Positions 25,475-35,951 of a stretch of 64,000 nucleotides of DNA are shown piece after piece. Where the stretch lies: the NCBI RefSeq assembly GCF_001679785.1, contig NZ_CP016286.1:4412501-4476500 (forward strand). The letters are read 5' to 3'. Position 1 is the first letter of the stretch. The number at the start of each line of letters is the position of its first letter. The translations under genes were made by a program, and so were the position numbers. The notes under the pieces were generated by a model. It was not told where the DNA came from. It ran no database searches and saw nothing but the letters and a program-made list of their open reading frames with translations. The DNA comes from Rhizobium leguminosarum. Lineage in GTDB: Bacteria > Pseudomonadota > Alphaproteobacteria > Rhizobiales > Rhizobiaceae.

Positions 25475-26353
25475 TCATGAGTTCAGCAAGCTGATCAGGT
25501 TCTCGGTGACCGGTGAGCGATGTGTTTTCAGCATTGCCAGCGCCAGGCGCGCCACGGCCGGCGGCCCTTCGATCGGCCGGTAGGCCACACCTTCGAGCTT
25601 GATCTGCGAAATCGAGGCCGGCACGATCGAGACGCCGAGATCGGCCGCCACCAGATTGACGACCGAGGAAATCTGCGGCGCCTCCTGCGCCACGGTCAGC
25701 TCGAATCCCGCCTTGCGGCAGGCGAGCACGACATCGTCGTAGAGGCTCAGGCCCACGAGCCGCGGAAAGAGGATGAAGGGTTCGTCCGCCAGCGCCGCAA
25801 GCGGTAGCTTGTTGCGCCGTGCCAGGGGATGGCTGGCGGGCAGGGCGATCACCATCGGCTCATCCGGCAACCGCCGCAGCCGGATACCGGCGGGATCGTC
25901 AAGGCTGGGGCGCATGAAGGTGGCGTCGAGCTCTCCGCGTTCGAGCTTCTGCATCAGCGCCAGCGTATTCATTTCCGTCAGCGACAGCTGCACCTCCGGC
26001 CAGCGTGCGCGAAAGCGGCGGATCGTCGTGCTGACGACGGGATTGAAGGCGGAGGAAGCGGTGAAACCGAGCGACAGCCGGCCCGTCTCGCCGCGATTGG
26101 CGCTTTGCGCCGCAAGCTTCGCCTTTTCCGCTGCCGCCAGCGACGCCTTTGCCTCGCCGAGGAAGGCCGCGCCCGCTGCCGTCAATTCGGCCCCATGCGG
26201 CACGCGGTGAAACAGCGCAGCACCCACTTCCCTTTCCAGGTCGCGGATCTGCTGGCTGAGCGGCGGCTGCCCTATGCCGAGCTTGCCGGCGGCACGGGTG
26301 AAATTGCCTTCCTCCGCCACTGCCAGGAAATATCTCAGGTGCCGCAACTCCAT
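25475..26353 (-). CDS. LysR family transcriptional regulator (CatR/BenM-like)
   Basis: A 292-residue regulator that begins MELRHLRYFLAVAEEGNFTR, the typical opening of the CatR/BenM subgroup, with HTH residues LGIGQPPLSQQIRDLE at about 28-43 and an effector domain. I placed the start at 26353; ATG 26359 and TTG 26365 are alternatives. It is divergent from an MFS transporter gene about 90 bases away and probably controls it. The effector is unknown. Confidence 0.9.
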   Translation of the reverse strand: MELRHLRYFLAVAEEGNFTRAAGKLGIGQPPLSQQIRDLEREVGAALFHRVPHGAELTAAGAAFLGEAKASLAAAEKAKLAAQSANRGETGRLSLGFTASSAFNPVVSTTIRRFRARWPEVQLSLTEMNTLALMQKLERGELDATFMRPSLDDPAGIRLRRLPDEPMVIALPASHPLARRNKLPLAALADEPFILFPRLVGLSLYDDVVLACRKAGFELTVAQEAPQISSVVNLVAADLGVSIVPASISQIKLEGVAYRPIEGPPAVARLALAMLKTHRSPVTENLISLLNS

Positions 26354-26443
26354 CGTCATCTTCAAAACCTATCGAAATCGCCAGTTTCATATATTGGACA
26401 AATGGAGTGGCGTTGACTAGATCGGAGGCTGGAAGGATGAGAT

Positions 26444-28077
<1,634 letters not shown>

Positions 28078-28187: not shown

Positions 28188-28406
28188 TCACTCCTGCCCA
28201 GCAGGCTGTTCTTCCACCGCTGTTGCAAAATCGGGATCGACCGGACCGGCCACGTCGGCAAGCCAGTCCCAATCATCGGAAATCGGCTCGAGAATGATCG
28301 TACGCCCCTGCCGTCGAATGGCGACGCTGTGGCCGTCGAAACAGAATTCCTTGGGCAGCAGGACGGCTTGAGAGCGCCCCGACCAGAAGATCTTTGCTGT
28401 TTCCAT
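28188..28406 (-). CDS. VapB-like antitoxin, apparently orphan
   Basis: A 72-residue protein with an AbrB/SpoVT-type beta-barrel N-terminus (TAKIFWSGRSQAVLLPKEF, about residues 3-21, then VAIRRQGRTIILEPI), the pattern of VapB antitoxins. The C-terminal part, which would neutralise the toxin, is acidic. In vapBC pairs the VapC toxin follows the antitoxin directly; here the next 110 bases hold no PIN-domain gene. The start at 28406 was chosen over 28457 because similarity begins there. It is 48 bases downstream of the urocanase-like gene. Confidence 0.8.
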   Translation of the reverse strand: METAKIFWSGRSQAVLLPKEFCFDGHSVAIRRQGRTIILEPISDDWDWLADVAGPVDPDFATAVEEQPAGQE

Positions 28407-28453
28407 GTCATGGCTCCCGATGAGATGTGACAACGATATACAGCAATTTTTGA

Positions 28454-30115
28454 TCAACCAAGCCGGATATAGGGCACGTCCTTCTTCGCCACCTCGTCCA
28501 GCGCCTCCTCGTAACCGGCATCGGCGTAACGCATGACGCCGAGCGCCGTATCGTTGGTCAGCGCATGGTCGAGCCGTTCGTCGGCGCCATCCGTGCCGTC
28601 CGCGATGACGGTGACGCCGCAGCTCGTCATGTAGCCGGCATAGCCGCCGCCGCCGGAATGGACGGCGACGAGATCAGCCATCGACGAGCAGAGCATCATC
28701 GCATCGATCAGCGGCCAGTCGGCGATCGCATCCGAGCCGTCCTTCATCCCCTCGGTCATGATATTCGGATGCGCCATGGCGCCGGCATCGAGATGGTCGC
28801 GCGAGAAGGCGACCGGGCCCTTGAGTTCGCCGCTTGCAACCAGCGCATTGACGCGGCGGGCGAGTGCCGTGCGTTCGCCATGGCCGAGCCAGGCGATGCG
28901 GGCCGGCAGCCCCTCAAATGGCACATGCTCGCGCGCCAGCCGGATCCAGTTGGTGATGATCTTGTTGTCGGGGAACATCTCGAGCAGCAGGTCGTCAATG
29001 CGAGCGATATCGCTCTCTTCGCCCGATAGCGCCATCCAGCGGAATGGGCCGATTGCCCGGGCAAACAGCGGCCTGAGATAGGCTTCGGTGAAAATCGGAA
29101 TGTCGAAGGCATTGGCGACGCCGCCCTCTTTGGCCTGCGTTCGGATCAGGTTGCCGTTGTCGAAGACTTCCGAGCCACGCTTCTGGAATTCCAGCATCGC
29201 CGTCACATGCTCGACGATCGAGGCCCGGCTTGCCGCCATCAATTGCCCTTGGCCATCGTCACGCAGGCCCTTGACCTGCTCGAGGCTCATGCCCTTCGGC
29301 ACGTAGCCATAGACGAGGTCATGCGCCGAGGTCTGGTCGGTGACGATATCAGGCACGATGCCGCGCCGGGCAATTTCCGGATAGACCTCCGCCGCATTGC
29401 CGACGAGGCCGACAGAAAGCGCCCGCTTGTCCTTCACCGCCGCATCGATCATCTGAAGGGCGGTGTCGAGATCGGGCGCGATTTCCTGGAGATAACCGAT
29501 CTGCTGGCGCTTGCGGGCCCGCTCCGGATCAATGTCGACGCAGAGGATCGCAGCGCCTGCCATGCGGCCGGCAAGCGGCTGCGCTCCGCCCATGCCGCCG
29601 AGGCCGGCCGTCAGCACGAACCGGCCGAGAAGGTCGCCGCCGAAGCGCCGCTCGGCGATGCGCATGAATATCTCATACGTGCCCTGGATGACGCCCTGGC
29701 TGCCGATATATTGCCAGGCGCCGGCCGTCAGCCCGCCCCAGCAGATCAGTCCCTTGCGCTGCAGCTCGTAGAACACTTCGGCCTTTGCCCATTGCCCGAC
29801 GATATTGCAGTTCGCCATGATGACCAGCGGCGCCTTGGCATGCGTTCGAACGAGACCGATCGGCTTGCCGGACTGGATGAGCAGCGTCTGGTCCTCTTCC
29901 ATCTCGGTCAGCGCCTTGACGATGCCCCTGTGCGCCGCCCAGTTGCGGGCCGCCTTGCCGAGCGCGGCATAGACGATCAGGTTGTCAGGATCCTCGCCGA
30001 CGGAGAGCACGTTTTCGAGCAGCCGGAGCAGCGCCTCCTGCCGCCAGCCTTTGGCGCGCAGTTCCGGTCCGCCGGGAATCGGAAATTTCGGATGACGTGG
30101 ATTGGCCTTCGGCAT
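28454..30115 (-). CDS. Urocanase-family hydratase, probable thiourocanate/S-methyl-thiourocanate hydratase
   Basis: A 553-residue NAD-dependent hydratase of the urocanase family. The NAD-binding loop GLGGMGGAQPLAG is near residue 170. The urocanase signature is present as FEGLPARIAWLG near 400-411, but the active-site cysteine of the FQGLPxRICW signature is alanine here (about residue 407). The region normally reading HHGGGVGMG is HSGGGGYAG. These changes argue against true urocanate hydratase (HutU). In context (HAL-like lyase, DUF917, cyclic amidohydrolase, carbamoylase) it would hydrate a thiourocanate or S-methyl-thiourocanate to a thiohydantoin. The family is certain; the substrate is inference. 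Confidence 0.8.
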   Translation of the reverse strand: MPKANPRHPKFPIPGGPELRAKGWRQEALLRLLENVLSVGEDPDNLIVYAALGKAARNWAAHRGIVKALTEMEEDQTLLIQSGKPIGLVRTHAKAPLVIMANCNIVGQWAKAEVFYELQRKGLICWGGLTAGAWQYIGSQGVIQGTYEIFMRIAERRFGGDLLGRFVLTAGLGGMGGAQPLAGRMAGAAILCVDIDPERARKRQQIGYLQEIAPDLDTALQMIDAAVKDKRALSVGLVGNAAEVYPEIARRGIVPDIVTDQTSAHDLVYGYVPKGMSLEQVKGLRDDGQGQLMAASRASIVEHVTAMLEFQKRGSEVFDNGNLIRTQAKEGGVANAFDIPIFTEAYLRPLFARAIGPFRWMALSGEESDIARIDDLLLEMFPDNKIITNWIRLAREHVPFEGLPARIAWLGHGERTALARRVNALVASGELKGPVAFSRDHLDAGAMAHPNIMTEGMKDGSDAIADWPLIDAMMLCSSMADLVAVHSGGGGYAGYMTSCGVTVIADGTDGADERLDHALTNDTALGVMRYADAGYEEALDEVAKKDVPYIRLG

Positions 30116-30147
30116 CGTGGGTTCCTCGTTTTGCTCTGCCTCGTTCG

Positions 30148-30477
30148 TTATTTGCTGGGCAGCGATTCCACATAGGCAAGTGCCGCATCGATCAAGCGCC
30201 GTCTCAGGGAATCGTCGCCATAAACCTCGGCACCGCCTCGCACCCAGCCATGCATGACACGTTCGCCCGACAGCATCTGGATCACGCCCGGCAGCGCCAG
30301 CGCCCAGCCGTCATTGCCCTTGCCGAGGCGGATCAGCATGCCGTCATGGCGCGCGCAGCAGAGAAGATTGCCGTTCAGCATGAAGGCTCGGCCGCCGAAC
30401 ATGGGTTTTTCGGCAAGGCCCGGCCGATCGCCGAGTTCCTCGCGCATCAGTTCTTCGAGGCCGGGATCTCGCGCCAT
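30148..30477 (-). CDS. TfoX/Sxy N-terminal domain protein
   Basis: A 109-residue protein with the TfoX N-domain pattern: EKPMFGGRAFMLNGNLLCCA at about residues 23-42 and a second conserved stretch GMLIRLGKGN. In gammaproteobacteria the two-domain TfoX regulates competence; single-domain relatives in rhizobia have no known role. It lies three bases from the DUF917 gene and 32 bases from the urocanase-like gene, clearly inside the operon, so it may have a part in this catabolism, but nothing in the sequence says what. Confidence 0.83.
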   Translation of the reverse strand: MARDPGLEELMREELGDRPGLAEKPMFGGRAFMLNGNLLCCARHDGMLIRLGKGNDGWALALPGVIQMLSGERVMHGWVRGGAEVYGDDSLRRRLIDAALAYVESLPSK

Positions 30478-30480
30478 GGC

Positions 30481-31578
30481 TCAGGCTTTCGTCGCCAGTG
30501 CATAGCGTGCGATCTCGATCCCCATCGCCTTTTCGACGACGGGATAGACGGTCGGATCGAGCACGCTTGCCGACAGCGGAATGATCTCCATCGGCACATG
30601 CAGGATGAAGACATGCATACCCTCCTTGAGCTGGCCGACGCTGAGCGGCTCGCCCTCCGGTGAAAGCGTGGTGATCACGGCGGGGAAGGTCGCAAGCCTT
30701 TTGCCATCCGCACCGTCCACCGCCATATATTCGTTCATCACATGCAGCGTCACCGATTTTTCGCCCGCGCCGACGGTGATCGTGCCGATGTCGAAGGCTT
30801 CCTTGGTGTAGACGACGTCCTTGCGGGTGATGACGCCTTCGGCAAGGATATGCCCGCCCGTTGTCTTGCAGATAGCGTCGATGACGGCAGATCCGCCGCG
30901 CTTCTCCGCCGCGATGATCGCCTCGCCGAGCGCAAGCGCCATCGAGATGCCGCCGAGCGCCGCATGGGTGCGGACATAGGAGGCCCGGAGCGGATTGCGG
31001 CAGCTGGCGATGAAGCCGCCGGATTGGTCGGCGGCGGCGCGCAGCACCGGCGAGATCTTCGCCGTCGCCCCCTTCACCACCAGCTCGATGTAACGGTTCT
31101 CGGCGCGATTGCCGCCGACGGCGGTCTGGATCATCTGCTCGGGCGAACCGGCCATGCCGATCGAGCCCATGTCGCCCGTCGGGTGCGCGCGAATATCGCC
31201 GACCGCGTCGACCACCTTGGTGCCGAGGATTGCTGACGGCAGCCAGCCGTTCAGCGTCGAGGATTTGCCGTTCTGGCCGATGATCAGCCCGGAAAGTTTT
31301 TCGCCGAGCGCCTCCTGCAGCAATTGCACCGCCTTCACATAGTCGATGCCTTGCATTTCCCAGGGGGTCGTGGAGGCCGGTGCGCCGATCGCGGCTGCGG
31401 TGGCGATCCACTCTCCGTCCCGCAATTCGTCGATCGAGACCAGCTCGGGCTTGCCGACATTGACGGCGGCAAGCCCAAGCATCCGCCCGTGATCGGCCCA
31501 GCCGCCGCCGCCGGCGGCATAGACGGAGCCGCCCTTGACCGCAGCTTCCACGTCCTTCTCAACGAGTATGCGTCCCAT
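30481..31578 (-). CDS. DUF917 protein, probable S-methyl-thiohydantoin desulfurase
   Basis: A 365-residue DUF917 protein. Typical features are VYAAGGGGWADHGRML near residue 20, a GDMGSIGMAGSPEQM segment near 134 and the C-terminal domain beginning near 255. DUF917 members have been linked to desulfurisation of S-methyl-thiohydantoin in S-methyl-ergothioneine breakdown, in which methanethiol is released to give the hydantoin; others were annotated as hydantoinase-like. The start overlaps the carbamoylase stop by 20 bases. The function is assigned from family and operon context and is not proven by motifs here. Confidence 0.8.
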   Translation of the reverse strand: MGRILVEKDVEAAVKGGSVYAAGGGGWADHGRMLGLAAVNVGKPELVSIDELRDGEWIATAAAIGAPASTTPWEMQGIDYVKAVQLLQEALGEKLSGLIIGQNGKSSTLNGWLPSAILGTKVVDAVGDIRAHPTGDMGSIGMAGSPEQMIQTAVGGNRAENRYIELVVKGATAKISPVLRAAADQSGGFIASCRNPLRASYVRTHAALGGISMALALGEAIIAAEKRGGSAVIDAICKTTGGHILAEGVITRKDVVYTKEAFDIGTITVGAGEKSVTLHVMNEYMAVDGADGKRLATFPAVITTLSPEGEPLSVGQLKEGMHVFILHVPMEIIPLSASVLDPTVYPVVEKAMGIEIARYALATKA

Positions 31579-32839
31579 TCGCCTTCTCCTGATTCAAGCT
31601 TTTGTCCATCTCGCGCACCGCCTCGAAAAGCACGGCCGCTCCGAGCGCGATATCGTCGTTTTCAGCCCATTCGTCAGCCGAATGGCTGCGGCCGTCCCGG
31701 CAGGGCACAAAGATCATCGCCGCCGGCGCCACCTTGGCGATCCAGGCCGTATCGTGTCCCGCGCCGGAGGCCATGCGCCGATGCTTCGCGCCGACACGTT
31801 CGCAGGCAGCCTCCAAGATCGAAAGCAGCCCAGGATCGCCAGGCGTCGGCTGATTGTCGGAAACCCGGTTCGGCATTTTGATCGTCACGCCATAGGCCCC
31901 CGCCAGCTTTTCGACATGGCCGTCGAGCCAGCGGCAGAACGCCTCCATGTCGGCGCGGATTTCGGCACGGCCATCGATCAGCAGCACCACCTTTGACGGC
32001 ACGACATTGGCCGCATTCGGCTCGATCCTGAATTCCCCGACCGTCGCCGCGAAATGCCCTGGCGTTTTGGCAAGTTCGGCCGCGGCATTGCGGATATCGA
32101 GCACCAGCTGTGACGCCGCCACCAGCGCATCTGCCCGCCGGTCCATCGGCGTCGTGCCGGCATGGTCGGCCCGCCCATCGACGGTGATCTCGATCCGGGT
32201 GATGCCCGAGATCGCGGTGACGATGCCGATATCCTCTTTTTCAGCTTCGAGCACCGGGCCTTGTTCGATATGAAGCTCCAGAAAGCCCGCTATATCGGGC
32301 CTGTTCTGCTGCATCAGCACATCGGGTCTGCCGCCGACCTGGGCGATGCCTTCGGCCAGGTCGCGCCCGTCGCTGACGCGCGAAAGCCAGGCCTCCGGCA
32401 GTTGGCCGGTCATGCCGCGGCTGCCAATGCAGGACACGCCGAAGATGCTGACCTCCTCGGCGAGGAAATCGACGATTTCGAGATCGTGATCGAGCTCGAT
32501 ATTCTGGTCAACAAGCGCCCGCGCCACCTCCAGCGCCGAGATGACGCCGGCAATACCGTCGAAGCGGCCGCCATCCGGCACCGTGTCGGAATGCGAGCCG
32601 ACCATGATCGTGCCGAGCCACGGTTTCCGGCCTGTCCGCCGGCCGATCAGATTGCCGGCGGCATCGATCCGCGTTTCCAGCCCCGCCGCCTTCATCCGCG
32701 CTTCGATATAGGCTCGGCCGTCGAGAAAGAGCGGCGAGAAAGCCCGCCGCGTCCAGGGATGCCCCGGCTCGGTGATCCCGGCCAGCGTATCGATATCGTC
32801 AGCGATCCGGCTGGCATTGACGGGAAGATTGCGGCTCAT
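31559..32839 (-). CDS. M20-family N-carbamoyl-L-amino-acid hydrolase
   Basis: A 426-residue zinc amidohydrolase of the carbamoylase/allantoate amidohydrolase group. Metal ligands lie in GSHSDTVPDGGRFDG (His and Asp, about residues 82-96), EEVSIFG (Glu, about 128) and HIEQGPVLE (His, about 194); the dimerisation domain has GRADHAGTTPMDRR near 227. In this operon it would hydrolyse N-carbamoyl-glutamate to glutamate, CO2 and ammonia. Its start overlaps the amidohydrolase stop by four bases. N-carbamoyl-beta-alanine or allantoate as substrate is possible if the operon assignment is wrong. Confidence 0.85.
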   Translation of the reverse strand: MSRNLPVNASRIADDIDTLAGITEPGHPWTRRAFSPLFLDGRAYIEARMKAAGLETRIDAAGNLIGRRTGRKPWLGTIMVGSHSDTVPDGGRFDGIAGVISALEVARALVDQNIELDHDLEIVDFLAEEVSIFGVSCIGSRGMTGQLPEAWLSRVSDGRDLAEGIAQVGGRPDVLMQQNRPDIAGFLELHIEQGPVLEAEKEDIGIVTAISGITRIEITVDGRADHAGTTPMDRRADALVAASQLVLDIRNAAAELAKTPGHFAATVGEFRIEPNAANVVPSKVVLLIDGRAEIRADMEAFCRWLDGHVEKLAGAYGVTIKMPNRVSDNQPTPGDPGLLSILEAACERVGAKHRRMASGAGHDTAWIAKVAPAAMIFVPCRDGRSHSADEWAENDDIALGAAVLFEAVREMDKSLNQEKANGTHTR

Positions 32840-34215
32840 GCTTCAGCCCCCGCAATGACTTGGCGCGGCAGCGGCCGCACGAAGTGGCCGGTGCCGGGTT
32901 TGGCCAGCACCTTGGCGCCCTCGGCGATCTTTTCGCCCCTGAGGTAGGTGGCGGAAACGGTCCAGGGCAGGCGGATGCCGTTATAGGGGCTCCAGCCGAC
33001 GACGTTGTTGCCGCTCGCGGCGGCGTCATAGACACTGTCGCGCGGCTCGAGCACGACGATATCGGCATCCTTGCCCGGGGTCAGCGCGCCCTTGATATGG
33101 TCGAGCCGGAAATGCTTCGCCGGGTTCTCCGCCATCAGCCTGGCTGCCCATGTCAGCGGAATGCCGCGTTCGACGGCACCTTTGACGAAAAGCGGCACCA
33201 TCACCTCGAGACCGGGAACGCCGGAGGCATTGGCGAGCATGTCGGGATTGGTCTTGCGGTTTTCCGACCAGCTGACGTGATCGGTCGAGACCAGCCAGAC
33301 ATCGCCGTCGGCCACCTTCCGCCAGAGCGTCTCCACCTCGGCGCGCGACCGCACGGGTGGATTGATCTTCGCCTTGCCGCCGAGGCGCTTCACGTCGTTT
33401 TCCTCGTCGAGCGTCAGGTAGTGGATGCAGCATTCCACAGTCGCCGCAAAGCCGTCGCGGCGATAGGCGCGCGCGATATCGTAGCCGCGCCCGAGCGAGC
33501 AGTGCACCACATGCGCCGGGCAACCGGTATGAGCGCCGGTCTCGAAGATCGTGTGCATCGCCAGCAGTTCGGTGATCGGCGGCCGCGACAGGCCGTGCGC
33601 CCGCCAGTCGGCGATGCCGCTCGCCTTCACCTGCTCCATGTAAGTGCGCACCGCCTCGTCGTCTTCATTGTGCACGCCCGCCGTCAGTCCCGTCGGCGCG
33701 ATCGCCGCAAAGCAGGCGTCGAGCAGGGCCGGCGGAATGCGCGGAAAACGCTTGGGGTCGGTGCCGAAGGTCGAGAATTTGAAGGCCGCGACGCCTGCCT
33801 CCACCATTTCGCGGATCCGCGCCGGGCCTTCTTCGGGATCGACGGTGCCGTAAAGCGCGAAATCGACCCGCGCCTGCGGACCGGCATGGTCGATCTTCCG
33901 CCTCACCGCCGCTGCCGAGCAGACGAGATTGCCTTCGTCATAGGGCATGTCGACAATGACAGTCACGCCGCCGGCCGCTGCCGATCGTGTCGACCAGAGG
34001 AAATCCTCCTGGTCTTTTTGGGAAAGCGAATGTACCTGCGCGTCGATCGCACCGGGCAGGATCAGCGCTTTTCCGAGCAGATGCCGTTCGCGGCCCGCAG
34101 GCGGTACGCCGACGCCGACTTCGGCGATTTTTCCGTCGCGCACGGCGACATAGCCCTCGTCGAGAATGCGGTCCGGCAGCACCACCGTGCCCTGCAAAAC
34201 GAGATCGAAGTCCAT
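32836..34215 (-). CDS. Cyclic amidohydrolase (dihydroorotase/hydantoinase family)
   Basis: A 459-residue TIM-barrel amidohydrolase. The first metal motif reads DAQVHS (Gln60-Val-His62) where most hydantoinases have HxH; some class I dihydroorotases also have Gln here. The bridging carbamylated lysine is probably Lys146 (AAFKFST), later ligands are His in GVHNEDD and HVVHCSLGRG, and the catalytic Asp is in STDHVSW. In this operon it would open the hydantoin ring of hydantoin-5-propionate to N-carbamoyl-glutamate. The substrate is inferred from neighbours. Confidence 0.82.
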   Translation of the reverse strand: MDFDLVLQGTVVLPDRILDEGYVAVRDGKIAEVGVGVPPAGRERHLLGKALILPGAIDAQVHSLSQKDQEDFLWSTRSAAAGGVTVIVDMPYDEGNLVCSAAAVRRKIDHAGPQARVDFALYGTVDPEEGPARIREMVEAGVAAFKFSTFGTDPKRFPRIPPALLDACFAAIAPTGLTAGVHNEDDEAVRTYMEQVKASGIADWRAHGLSRPPITELLAMHTIFETGAHTGCPAHVVHCSLGRGYDIARAYRRDGFAATVECCIHYLTLDEENDVKRLGGKAKINPPVRSRAEVETLWRKVADGDVWLVSTDHVSWSENRKTNPDMLANASGVPGLEVMVPLFVKGAVERGIPLTWAARLMAENPAKHFRLDHIKGALTPGKDADIVVLEPRDSVYDAAASGNNVVGWSPYNGIRLPWTVSATYLRGEKIAEGAKVLAKPGTGHFVRPLPRQVIAGAEA

Positions 34216-34237
34216 GCCGCTTCCTCCCTAAACCAGA

Positions 34238-35824
34238 TCAGACCGTTGCCGGTTCCTGCCCTGTCAGCCGCTCCTCGATACGCACCAGCGAGCCGAGGGC
34301 GAAGAAATCGTCGAAGGAGGCGATCGGAACCTGCTCGGTCAGCTTCGAGACGAAGTCGTCCGAACCGAGCTCCTCCTCGATTGCCTCCACTTCCGCCGAA
34401 AGCGGTCGGTCGACCGTATAGAAATCCGCATGTTTGCGCACGACCTCGTAGAGCATGGCGGCGACGCCCTTCGGTTCATCGCCGAGAATATCGATCGCCT
34501 GTGCCGACAGCAGCGCCTCGAGGGCTGCGAGGCGCTTCAGCGCCCGCATCTGCCGGTCGAAACGCTCGATGACGAGCGGCAGGAACGCTGCCTCGTCCTC
34601 CAGCCCGGCTGCGACGACCAGCGACTGCGCCGACACGGGATTGGACATCGACAGCACGCGCGAGAAGATCTCGCCGGCAAGTTTGATGATCGGCCCGAAA
34701 CCGGTCGCAATCCGCCCCGGCGGCACCAGATTGACCGGCAGGTCGCGGCGCTGGCCGTTGCCGAGAATGACGCAGCGGTTGAAGGCGTTGCGCGCCGCAT
34801 GCGCCATGCAAAGCGCTGCCGATTCGAGCAGGATCGTCACATCGAGCGGCAGAGAGCCGCCTGACGTCATCACCCGGCCTTCGACCACGACGGGATTGTC
34901 GTCCGAGCGCCCGGTGGCGGCAAGGATCTTGTGGCCGGTCGATAAGAGGTTCTCGATCACCGCGCCGAACACCTGCGCGATCATCCGCAGGCTGAGCGGA
35001 TCCTGCACATGCGTTGCCACAGGCCAGTTCCATTCGTCGGAGGCATTGCAGAGCCAGGCGCCGATCAGCGCCTCGCGCGCCGTTCCGACATGCCGGACCG
35101 CCTTCCAGGGATCGCGGGAAGCGCCAAGCGCGCCGGCCGCCATCATCGCCGTTGCCAGCAGGACGCGGATCGAGGCCGCGGCATTGCGCGTCGTTTCCGC
35201 CGCCGAGGCAAAGCTCACCGCATTGACGCTGAGCGAGGCGAGGCTGTCGCGCGGCGCCATCCGCATCGGTTCCAGCCCGGCCGCCCGGAAAGCCTCGGCC
35301 GCCTGCATCCGGTTGCCGCGATAGATCGCTTCGCCGACGCCGGTCAGCACCGCGCCGATCTGTCCCATCAACCCGATATCCGCACAGCCGATCGAGCCGG
35401 TGCGGCGCACGACCGGGATGAGATCGGCCTCGAGCATCCTGATATAGGCCTGGATCAGCTCCGGCGTGCAGCCGACCTGGCCGGTCAGTGCCGTGTTGAT
35501 ACGGATCGCCATGGCATTGCGCACGATATTGCAGGAAAAGGGGGTGCCGGTGCCGAAATGATGGGCGCGCACCAGGCCGAGATTGAAGGTGTCGAGTTCG
35601 TCGGCCGACCACTCCACATCCTTCATGGCGCCGACGCCTGTCGTCGAGCCGTAGACGGGCACGCCGGAGGCAATGGCATCCTCGACGACCTCGCGGGCGA
35701 TCGCGATGCGGGCCATGCCTGTCGCCGAAGCCGAAACAGCAGCCTTGCCCGCCCCGATCGTCACCATCTCGGCAAAACCGAGCGGTCGTCCGGAAAGTTC
35801 GATGCCAGGGCGTTCGTGCTTCAT
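34238..35824 (-). CDS. HAL/PAL-family lyase without MIO triad, probable (S-methyl-)ergothionase
   Basis: A 528-residue protein of the aromatic amino acid ammonia-lyase family, with VYGSTTGVGAM (the YGxxTGFG loop) near residue 58 and the conserved NPV segment SDDNPVV near 316. The loop that forms the MIO cofactor, GSxGASGDLAPL in histidine ammonia-lyase, reads GSIGCADIGLMG here (about 142-153), so Ala-Ser-Gly is Cys-Ala-Asp and no MIO can form. Ergothionases belong to this family and eliminate trimethylamine, a better leaving group, without MIO. The start at 35824 replaces a longer non-conserved frame. First gene of the operon. Confidence 0.82.
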   Translation of the reverse strand: MKHERPGIELSGRPLGFAEMVTIGAGKAAVSASATGMARIAIAREVVEDAIASGVPVYGSTTGVGAMKDVEWSADELDTFNLGLVRAHHFGTGTPFSCNIVRNAMAIRINTALTGQVGCTPELIQAYIRMLEADLIPVVRRTGSIGCADIGLMGQIGAVLTGVGEAIYRGNRMQAAEAFRAAGLEPMRMAPRDSLASLSVNAVSFASAAETTRNAAASIRVLLATAMMAAGALGASRDPWKAVRHVGTAREALIGAWLCNASDEWNWPVATHVQDPLSLRMIAQVFGAVIENLLSTGHKILAATGRSDDNPVVVEGRVMTSGGSLPLDVTILLESAALCMAHAARNAFNRCVILGNGQRRDLPVNLVPPGRIATGFGPIIKLAGEIFSRVLSMSNPVSAQSLVVAAGLEDEAAFLPLVIERFDRQMRALKRLAALEALLSAQAIDILGDEPKGVAAMLYEVVRKHADFYTVDRPLSAEVEAIEEELGSDDFVSKLTEQVPIASFDDFFALGSLVRIEERLTGQEPATV

Positions 35825-35838
35825 GTGCTGTGTCTCCC

Positions 35839-35951
35839 TAGAACAGGATGATTTTAGGCCGGATCGGCCCAAAATCTGAATCCTGTTCTAAATTAAAGCG
35901 CCTGAGCATGATGTCGCCCGAAAACCGCTCACACTTTTCGGCACCATGCTC
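35839..35951. repeat. Two adjacent palindromic elements upstream of the catabolic operon
   Basis: The first (35839-35890) has arms TAGAACAGGAT and ATCCTGTTCTA with an inner GATTTTAGGCC/GGCCCAAAATC pair. The second (35904-35951) has arms GAGCATGATG...CCGAAAA and TTTTCGG...CCATGCTC around CCGCTCACAC. The second looks like a repeat widely scattered in rhizobial genomes. Both lie between the operon start at 35824 and the ubiB stop at 36028, so they form the leader or promoter region of the operon. Confidence 0.65.

Follow-up and report, generated by a model that had tools for sequence, protein, structure and literature searches.

A six-gene operon at positions 28454 to 35824 of the Rhizobium leguminosarum window (the whole stretch of 64,000 nucleotides analyzed, NZ_CP016286.1 positions 4,412,501 to 4,476,500, from a genome of 8.57 Mb in 8 contigs) is highly likely to encode the catabolism of ergothioneine, both substrate and activity being predicted from sequence. 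Ergothioneine would very probably be broken down by its products to nitrogen, sulfide and glutamate. In the list of open reading frames (ORFs) of the window, the six minus-strand ORFs form a single run with spacings, in order of transcription, of 22, -4, -20, 3 and 32 bases. The close packing claimed in the initial annotation is thus borne out: neighboring genes either overlap slightly or lie no more than 32 bases apart. The Pfam families in the same order are aromatic amino acid lyase, amidohydrolase, M20, S-Me-THD, TfoX_N and urocanase. Equivalog cut-offs were taken from NCBIfam release 20, and paired values are score/cut-off in bits. The genes, in order of transcription, are:

34238-35824, minus strand: ertA-like gene for a lyase of the histidine ammonia-lyase (HAL) family lacking the 4-methylideneimidazole-5-one (MIO) triad, 528 residues, PF00221; proposed ergothioneine trimethylamine-lyase (ergothionase)
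32836-34215, minus strand: ertD, predicted hydantoin-5-propionate amidohydrolase, 459 residues, NF058538 (777/600)
31559-32839, minus strand: ertE, predicted N-carbamyl-L-glutamate amidohydrolase of family M20, 426 residues, NF058540 (636/520)
30481-31578, minus strand: predicted thiohydantoin desulfurase (DUF917 or S-Me-THD family), 365 residues, NF058529 (600/440)
30148-30477, minus strand: TfoX_N-like protein, part of the operon, 109 residues, PF04993 (32.8 bits, gathering threshold 30.1)
28454-30115, minus strand: predicted thiourocanate hydratase (urocanase family, Cys replaced by Ala), 553 residues, NF058530 (1060/930)

Ergothioneine is an antioxidant of fungi that also has an actinobacterial source. 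From the established chemistry of these enzyme families, a route of five steps can be proposed. The MIO-less lyase would expel trimethylamine from ergothioneine to give thiourocanate (step 1), which the urocanase homolog would hydrate to thiohydantoin propionate (step 2). The DUF917 protein would then swap sulfur for oxygen, with release of sulfide, to yield hydantoin-5-propionate (step 3); ErtD would open the ring of this compound to give N-carbamyl-L-glutamate (step 4), and ErtE would convert the latter to L-glutamate with loss of CO2 and ammonia (step 5). The TfoX-like protein would be an accessory alongside the pathway. Steps 2 to 5 are assigned because the proteins belong to curated equivalog families, and step 1 because of shared active-site substitutions together with the position of the lyase gene in the operon.

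Four of the six proteins (hydratase, desulfurase, ErtD and ErtE) exceed the curated NCBIfam cut-offs for the ergothioneine pathway, which upholds the stepwise route from a thio-histidine betaine put forward in the initial annotation. On the thiourocanate hydratase model, the true HutU of the same genome reaches 687 bits. The signature Cys of urocanases is replaced by Ala in the window hydratase (GLPARIAW, compared with GLPARICW in the rows for 1x87, 7jfz and 1w1u), confirming the lost cysteine noted earlier, and its best match in the PDB is 7ned with 820 bits, other chains scoring 621 or less. The desulfurase is the sole match of its kind in the genome at an E value of 0.001. ErtD falls well short of an alternative model, NF058539 (369/650), and the M20 enzyme, which passes the ErtE model, scores higher on the generic Zn-hydrolase model NF009531 (850/486).

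The absence of the MIO triad from the lyase, also claimed in the initial annotation, was verified by alignment: the sequence GSIGCA-DIG is one residue shorter than the GSVGASGDLA of both Pseudomonas putida HAL and the genome's own HutH. Lacking the Ala-Ser-Gly triad, and scoring far under the two NCBIfam HutH cut-offs (207/539 and 224/524), the protein does not qualify as a HutH. Its best PDB match is the Treponema denticola ergothionase 6s7j, with 167 bits compared to 138 for the next chain. Tyr53, His83, Gln277, Arg283 and Glu414 (HAL numbering) are retained, and the lyase shares with the T. denticola enzyme Ser for Asn195, Leu for Tyr280 and Lys for Val386; in its own numbering these are S199, L277 and K381. 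The Leu and Lys residues, which we ourselves chose as markers from the 6s7j alignment, together with the missing MIO triad give the lyase the ergothionase pattern. Position 329 is Ser in the lyase, unlike the Phe found in both ergothionase and HAL. The ORF begins with ATG, and a longer version could start from a TTG at 35872. Source records call relatives of the lyase either aromatic amino acid lyase or histidine ammonia-lyase. The lyase is therefore termed ergothionase-like on its residue signature, and step 1 is a prediction.

Several observations weigh against the assignment of the operon to ergothioneine. The lyase is no nearer to the T. denticola ergothionase (27% identity, 130/480) than to P. 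putida HAL (130/473), and no NCBIfam ergothionase model was matched either by it or by the lyase of a Burkholderia arboris locus. In a tree of 22 rows, in which that of T. denticola is the characterized ergothionase, the lyase and 11 relatives form one clade (support 100/100) that lies apart from the T. denticola ergothionase, the Burkholderia-locus lyase, the HALs and a second type of lyase. Several branches are long, and the program cautioned that some groupings of the other long rows could be spurious. The signature also varies within the clade: row P0113 has Gly in place of Ser, and in three rows Gln277 is replaced by His. The hydratase passes the hutU model TIGR01228 (695/375). This model does not separate HutU from thiourocanate hydratase, because the B. 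arboris thiourocanate hydratase passes it too, with 706 bits; the passing score fits the label of urocanate hydratase that public records give to homologs in Paracoccus, Thalassospira and Rhizobium sp. SL42. Comparison with true HutH and HutU, suggested along with the initial annotation and carried out in part, hence placed the lyase outside the HutH models and apart on the tree, and favored the hydratase on the thiourocanate model, yet with the broad hutU model also passed. That EgtD was not found in the genome speaks for the assignment, as ergothioneine would then be of external origin, but the sensitivity of this search is doubtful (a match in one of 14 control genomes, and in none over the cut-off). 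A further point against is the TfoX-like protein, for which the route has no step. The OsmF-type betaine ABC transporter counts both ways: its place inside or beside the operon in L026 and L117 favors the assignment, yet among 14 loci examined beyond the main Rhizobium set it was found in only these two.

Three other substrates have to be weighed, and each appears improbable. The natural substrate could be ergothioneine sulfonate, an oxidized form, for which a reconstituted bacterial pathway is reference 43 in PMC13405746, cited there for an Agrobacterium radiobacter enzyme. Agrobacterium also belongs to the Rhizobiaceae, and the window lyase clade is unlike the Treponema and Burkholderia-locus lyases, but the citing sentence of PMC13405746 has the A. 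radiobacter enzyme splitting ergothioneine; moreover, neither a thiohydantoin desulfurase nor a thiourocanate hydratase would be expected in a sulfonate route, and both window proteins pass the thione models. We regard this as an unlikely substrate. Somewhat less likely still is the degradation of S-methyl-ergothioneine with release of methanethiol. This route uses the same families, and Pfam has named the family to which the DUF917 protein belongs for the S-methyl enzyme. The initial annotation had allowed either compound. Ergothioneine stands, since the thione models pass, and the S-methyl route was rejected on the scores for S-methyl thiourocanate hydratase (NF058531, 741/880) and its desulfurase counterpart (NF058532, 279/450); the B. 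arboris proteins are likewise under the S-methyl cut-offs. A modified hut operon for histidine or hercynine, to which the HAL and urocanase families and the hutU score might point, is the least probable of all, as the MIO triad and urocanase cysteine are gone, the run includes neither HutI nor HutF, the desulfurase would have no substrate and a separate hut set lies on contig 4, where HutC, HutF, HutI and HutU pass their models and HutH has the MIO triad; a plain hut operon was rejected on the lost signatures, the HutH scores and this separate set.

Ergothioneine catabolism, if correctly assigned, is widespread in the genus. The thiourocanate hydratase scored over its cut-off in 33 of 37 genomes of the genus (the window genome and 36 others) and in one of 24 others of the order, that is, in 34 of 61 in total. 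Phylum-wide it did so in six of 398 genomes, which include the window genome and three others of the genus. The desulfurase was over its cut-off in 107 of 120 Rhizobium genomes, and in all 37 genus genomes shared by the two surveys the enzymes agreed (both present in 33, neither in four), which speaks for the assignment. Among the best 80 of 405 desulfurase matches, the nearest named relatives, at 98% identity, are from Rhizobium laguerreae, R. leguminosarum and R. sophorae, which places the window genome in or near the R. leguminosarum complex. Gene content was compared in 90 related loci (L026 and L029-L117), 80 of them being those best 80 by desulfurase similarity; they are not independent, at least four contigs, judged from their lengths, being counted twice (L031/L100, L033/L050, L036/L101 and L037/L060). 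ErtD, ErtE, the desulfurase and the hydratase occur in all 90 and the lyase in 89, L075 stopping at a contig end. Because the five enzymes other than the TfoX-like protein co-occur in 89 of 90 loci, their grouping is not due to chance. The flanking genes ubiB and coaBC were found in 85 and 70 loci, respectively.

Median ratios of nonsynonymous to synonymous substitution rates relative to the window, taken over 71-79 of 79 loci per gene, were 0.09 for the lyase, 0.08 for ErtD, 0.13 for ErtE, 0.09 for the desulfurase, 0.18 for the TfoX-like protein and 0.05 for the hydratase. These low values indicate that all six genes are under purifying selection. Stops in 10 of 79 ErtE alignments were considered as disruptions and rejected; they are natural gene ends at residues 416-419 of 426. 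A search for sigma-70-type promoters and terminators was uninformative, with one and four found against shuffle means of 1.1 and 4.5.

Beyond the main Rhizobium set, 14 loci were considered (L026, L114, L117, L130, L131, L147, L148, L156-L160, L162 and L163), of which L130, L156, L157 and L158 have partial gene sets. No lyase or M20 match was seen in L130. Lyase matches are lacking from the plasmid loci of Paracoccus aminophilus and Thalassospira marina, where TRAP transporter genes follow downstream; this arrangement would fit uptake of thiourocanate from outside. The locus of a Microvirga nodule isolate has desulfurase, amidohydrolase and Zn-hydrolase genes and no hydratase match, and an amino-acid ABC transporter adjoins it. 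On the plasmids of Paracoccus denitrificans (L163) and B. arboris (L159), a lyase gene is found 1.5-1.7 kb past the hydratase gene; the enzyme it encodes is of another type, 29-30% identical to that of the window. It thus seems that one set of downstream enzymes has been combined with different lyases.

The TfoX-like protein passes the PF04993 threshold with 32.8 bits, the genome's two other TfoX_N proteins scoring 101 and 89 bits, and it is distant from the matched parts of these (21% and 16% identity). The gene is present in 80 of the 90 loci and in three of the 14 outside ones; since it is missing from the other 10 and 11, respectively, the protein is not needed for the route. Only four of 121 genomes of the family, the window genome included, have a match at 1e-20, and in all four the gene lies between those for desulfurase and hydratase, as it does on a Shinella plasmid. 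Sinorhizobium has TfoX-like proteins up to 77-78% identical, and seven of 99 genomes in the genus of genome G110 have a match at 41-43%. One AlphaFold2 model gave a mean predicted local distance difference test score of 94, and VP1028 (2od0) is the one solved structure to which its sequence is significantly related. Chance inclusion in the operon is not favored; a binding or regulatory accessory would be our guess.

The genes near the operon are as follows:

26444-28077, plus strand: MFS transporter and VOC protein, convergent neighbors (Pfam and NCBIfam)
25475-26365, minus strand: LysR regulator (Pfam and NCBIfam)
28188-28457, minus strand: VapB-like antitoxin ORF overlapping the end of the hydratase gene, NF040493 (69/60)
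35838-35951, no strand assigned: dispersed intergenic palindromic repeat just upstream of the lyase gene, recognized from its genome copies

The initial annotation saw no transporter or regulator adjacent. This holds for the six-gene run itself and fails for its surroundings, where the LysR gene and the MFS-VOC pair lie just downstream. An MFS gene was found in 83 of the 90 loci, VOC in 64 and LysR in 69, the last including four weak matches (37-44%). As pathway parts these genes were rejected and kept as Rhizobium synteny only, L026, L114 and L117 being without MFS and VOC; their relevance to the pathway is doubtful.

A different regulator is suggested by the outside loci. Near the genes in 11 of the 14 there is a protein that aligns with the L117 regulator across 95% or more of its length at 31-48% identity, L117 itself included. 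A domain scan of eight of these 11 showed two HTH_1 stretches and a LysR substrate domain in each (at an E value of 1); in L130 this two-HTH LysR lies about 3 kb from the first gene. It was not seen in L158, L159 or L026, the far side of L026 being beyond the available sequence, and the Rhizobium loci L029-L113, L115 and L116 gave no strong match, with five weak ones of 54-57 bits. Of the two OsmF-type transporters, that of L026 is encoded inside the operon, between the lyase and ErtD; in Brucella rhizosphaerae (L117) it is divergent from the operon, behind the regulator, and its binding protein scores 498/400 on the OsmF model. In the window genome, the contig that carries the operon also encodes, at about 4.60 Mb and roughly 150 kb distant, an OsmF-type transporter whose binding protein is 65% identical to that of L026 and scores 488/400; next to this transporter is a two-HTH LysR, 29-35% identical to the eight scanned regulators. 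This distant pair may serve the operon, and the substrate is probably taken up through a betaine-type ABC transporter whose genes lie elsewhere in the genome.

The VapB-like ORF, found in 21 of the 90 loci, is probably a passenger; no VapC was noted beside it in the ORF list. Rhizobium sp. SL42 has an AbrB/MazE-VapC pair directly before the lyase. The palindrome before the window lyase was considered as an operator and rejected, being a dispersed repeat with 39 other long genome copies at 84-92% identity among the 40 scored of 119 candidates. We presume it to be RIME-like.

The window genome contains four HAL-family proteins, only one of which has the MIO triad. A second MIO-less lyase is encoded at about 622-632 kb of contig 2 (L028:3783-14467), and its locus is also present on plasmid pRL12 of R. 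johnstonii 3841 (L161), where the lyase is annotated as hutH; a search of open-licence literature for pRL120 and hutH returned nothing. Its best PDB match is ergothionase with 265 bits, HAL being next with 241. Leu and Lys are kept, with Arg for His83 and Val for Asn195. The accompanying run encodes a CoA-transferase, SDR and MaoC proteins, HutC, a glycine-betaine-type binding protein, a cyclodeaminase-family protein and ABC genes. Ten of 61 relatives have a match of at least 73%, which in two of them is interrupted by an internal stop. This lyase possibly acts on another aromatic betaine. The third MIO-less protein (L027:5584-7071, contig 4) has the triad deleted (GSAG---YLV); the gene run around it also includes a histidine-type ABC transporter and HutC. 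Tentatively, and with more doubt than confidence, one may envisage a rhizobial set of MIO-less HAL-type lyases for aromatic amino acid betaines, in which the window clade would be a separate trimethylamine-lyase branch with its own specificity and a TfoX-like partner, and the pRL12 hutH paralog would serve another plant or fungal betaine via CoA chemistry.

According to statements in PMC13405746 (2026), ergothionase lacks MIO, cleaves ergothioneine to trimethylamine and thiourocanic acid, and has been definitively identified in few microorganisms. The same article refers to a Burkholderia ergothionase expressed with ergothioneine as sole nitrogen source and cites the ergothionase of Burkholderia sp. 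HME13. The pathway itself is known from other bacteria; what is new here is how widely it occurs in Rhizobium, together with the divergence of the lyase and the TfoX partner. The hydratase, the desulfurase and the S-methyl enzymes are reportedly the subject of papers from Muramatsu and from Seebeck and colleagues, and the HME13 gene cluster is presumably of the Burkholderia type. No title or opening of an abstract found in a partial view of the open-licence literature concerned an ergothioneine-degrading operon in rhizobia. If our assignment is correct, most Rhizobium genomes, as judged from the desulfurase survey, can break down ergothioneine, an ability masked by annotation of the enzymes as histidine ammonia-lyase or aromatic amino acid lyase and as urocanate hydratase. 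Fungal or actinobacterial ergothioneine would then be a testable source of nitrogen and sulfur for root-nodule bacteria, and possibly a source of soil trimethylamine and sulfide.

Among known systems, the hut operon resembles that of the window in that the first and last window enzymes are homologous to HutH and HutU, but their catalytic signatures are lost and hydantoin-opening and desulfurizing enzymes replace HutI and HutF. The T. denticola ergothionase is, like the window lyase, a MIO-less member of the HAL family with the same Ser, Leu and Lys substitutions and the Glu kept, although at 27% identity it falls in a separate clade and has Phe rather than Ser at HAL position 329. The NCBIfam ergothioneine utilization set (NF058530, NF058529, NF058538 and NF058540) is matched here over all four cut-offs, whereas the window operon adds the TfoX-like gene and has a lyase that fits no ergothionase model. 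Finally, the plasmid locus of B. arboris (L159) differs in that ErtD and ErtE are 43-44% identical to those of the window and encoded on the other strand, there is no TfoX match, and its lyase is about 30% identical to the window's and 37% to Treponema's; its desulfurase and hydratase, however, are 70% and 71% identical to those of the window, and its proteins pass the same four models.

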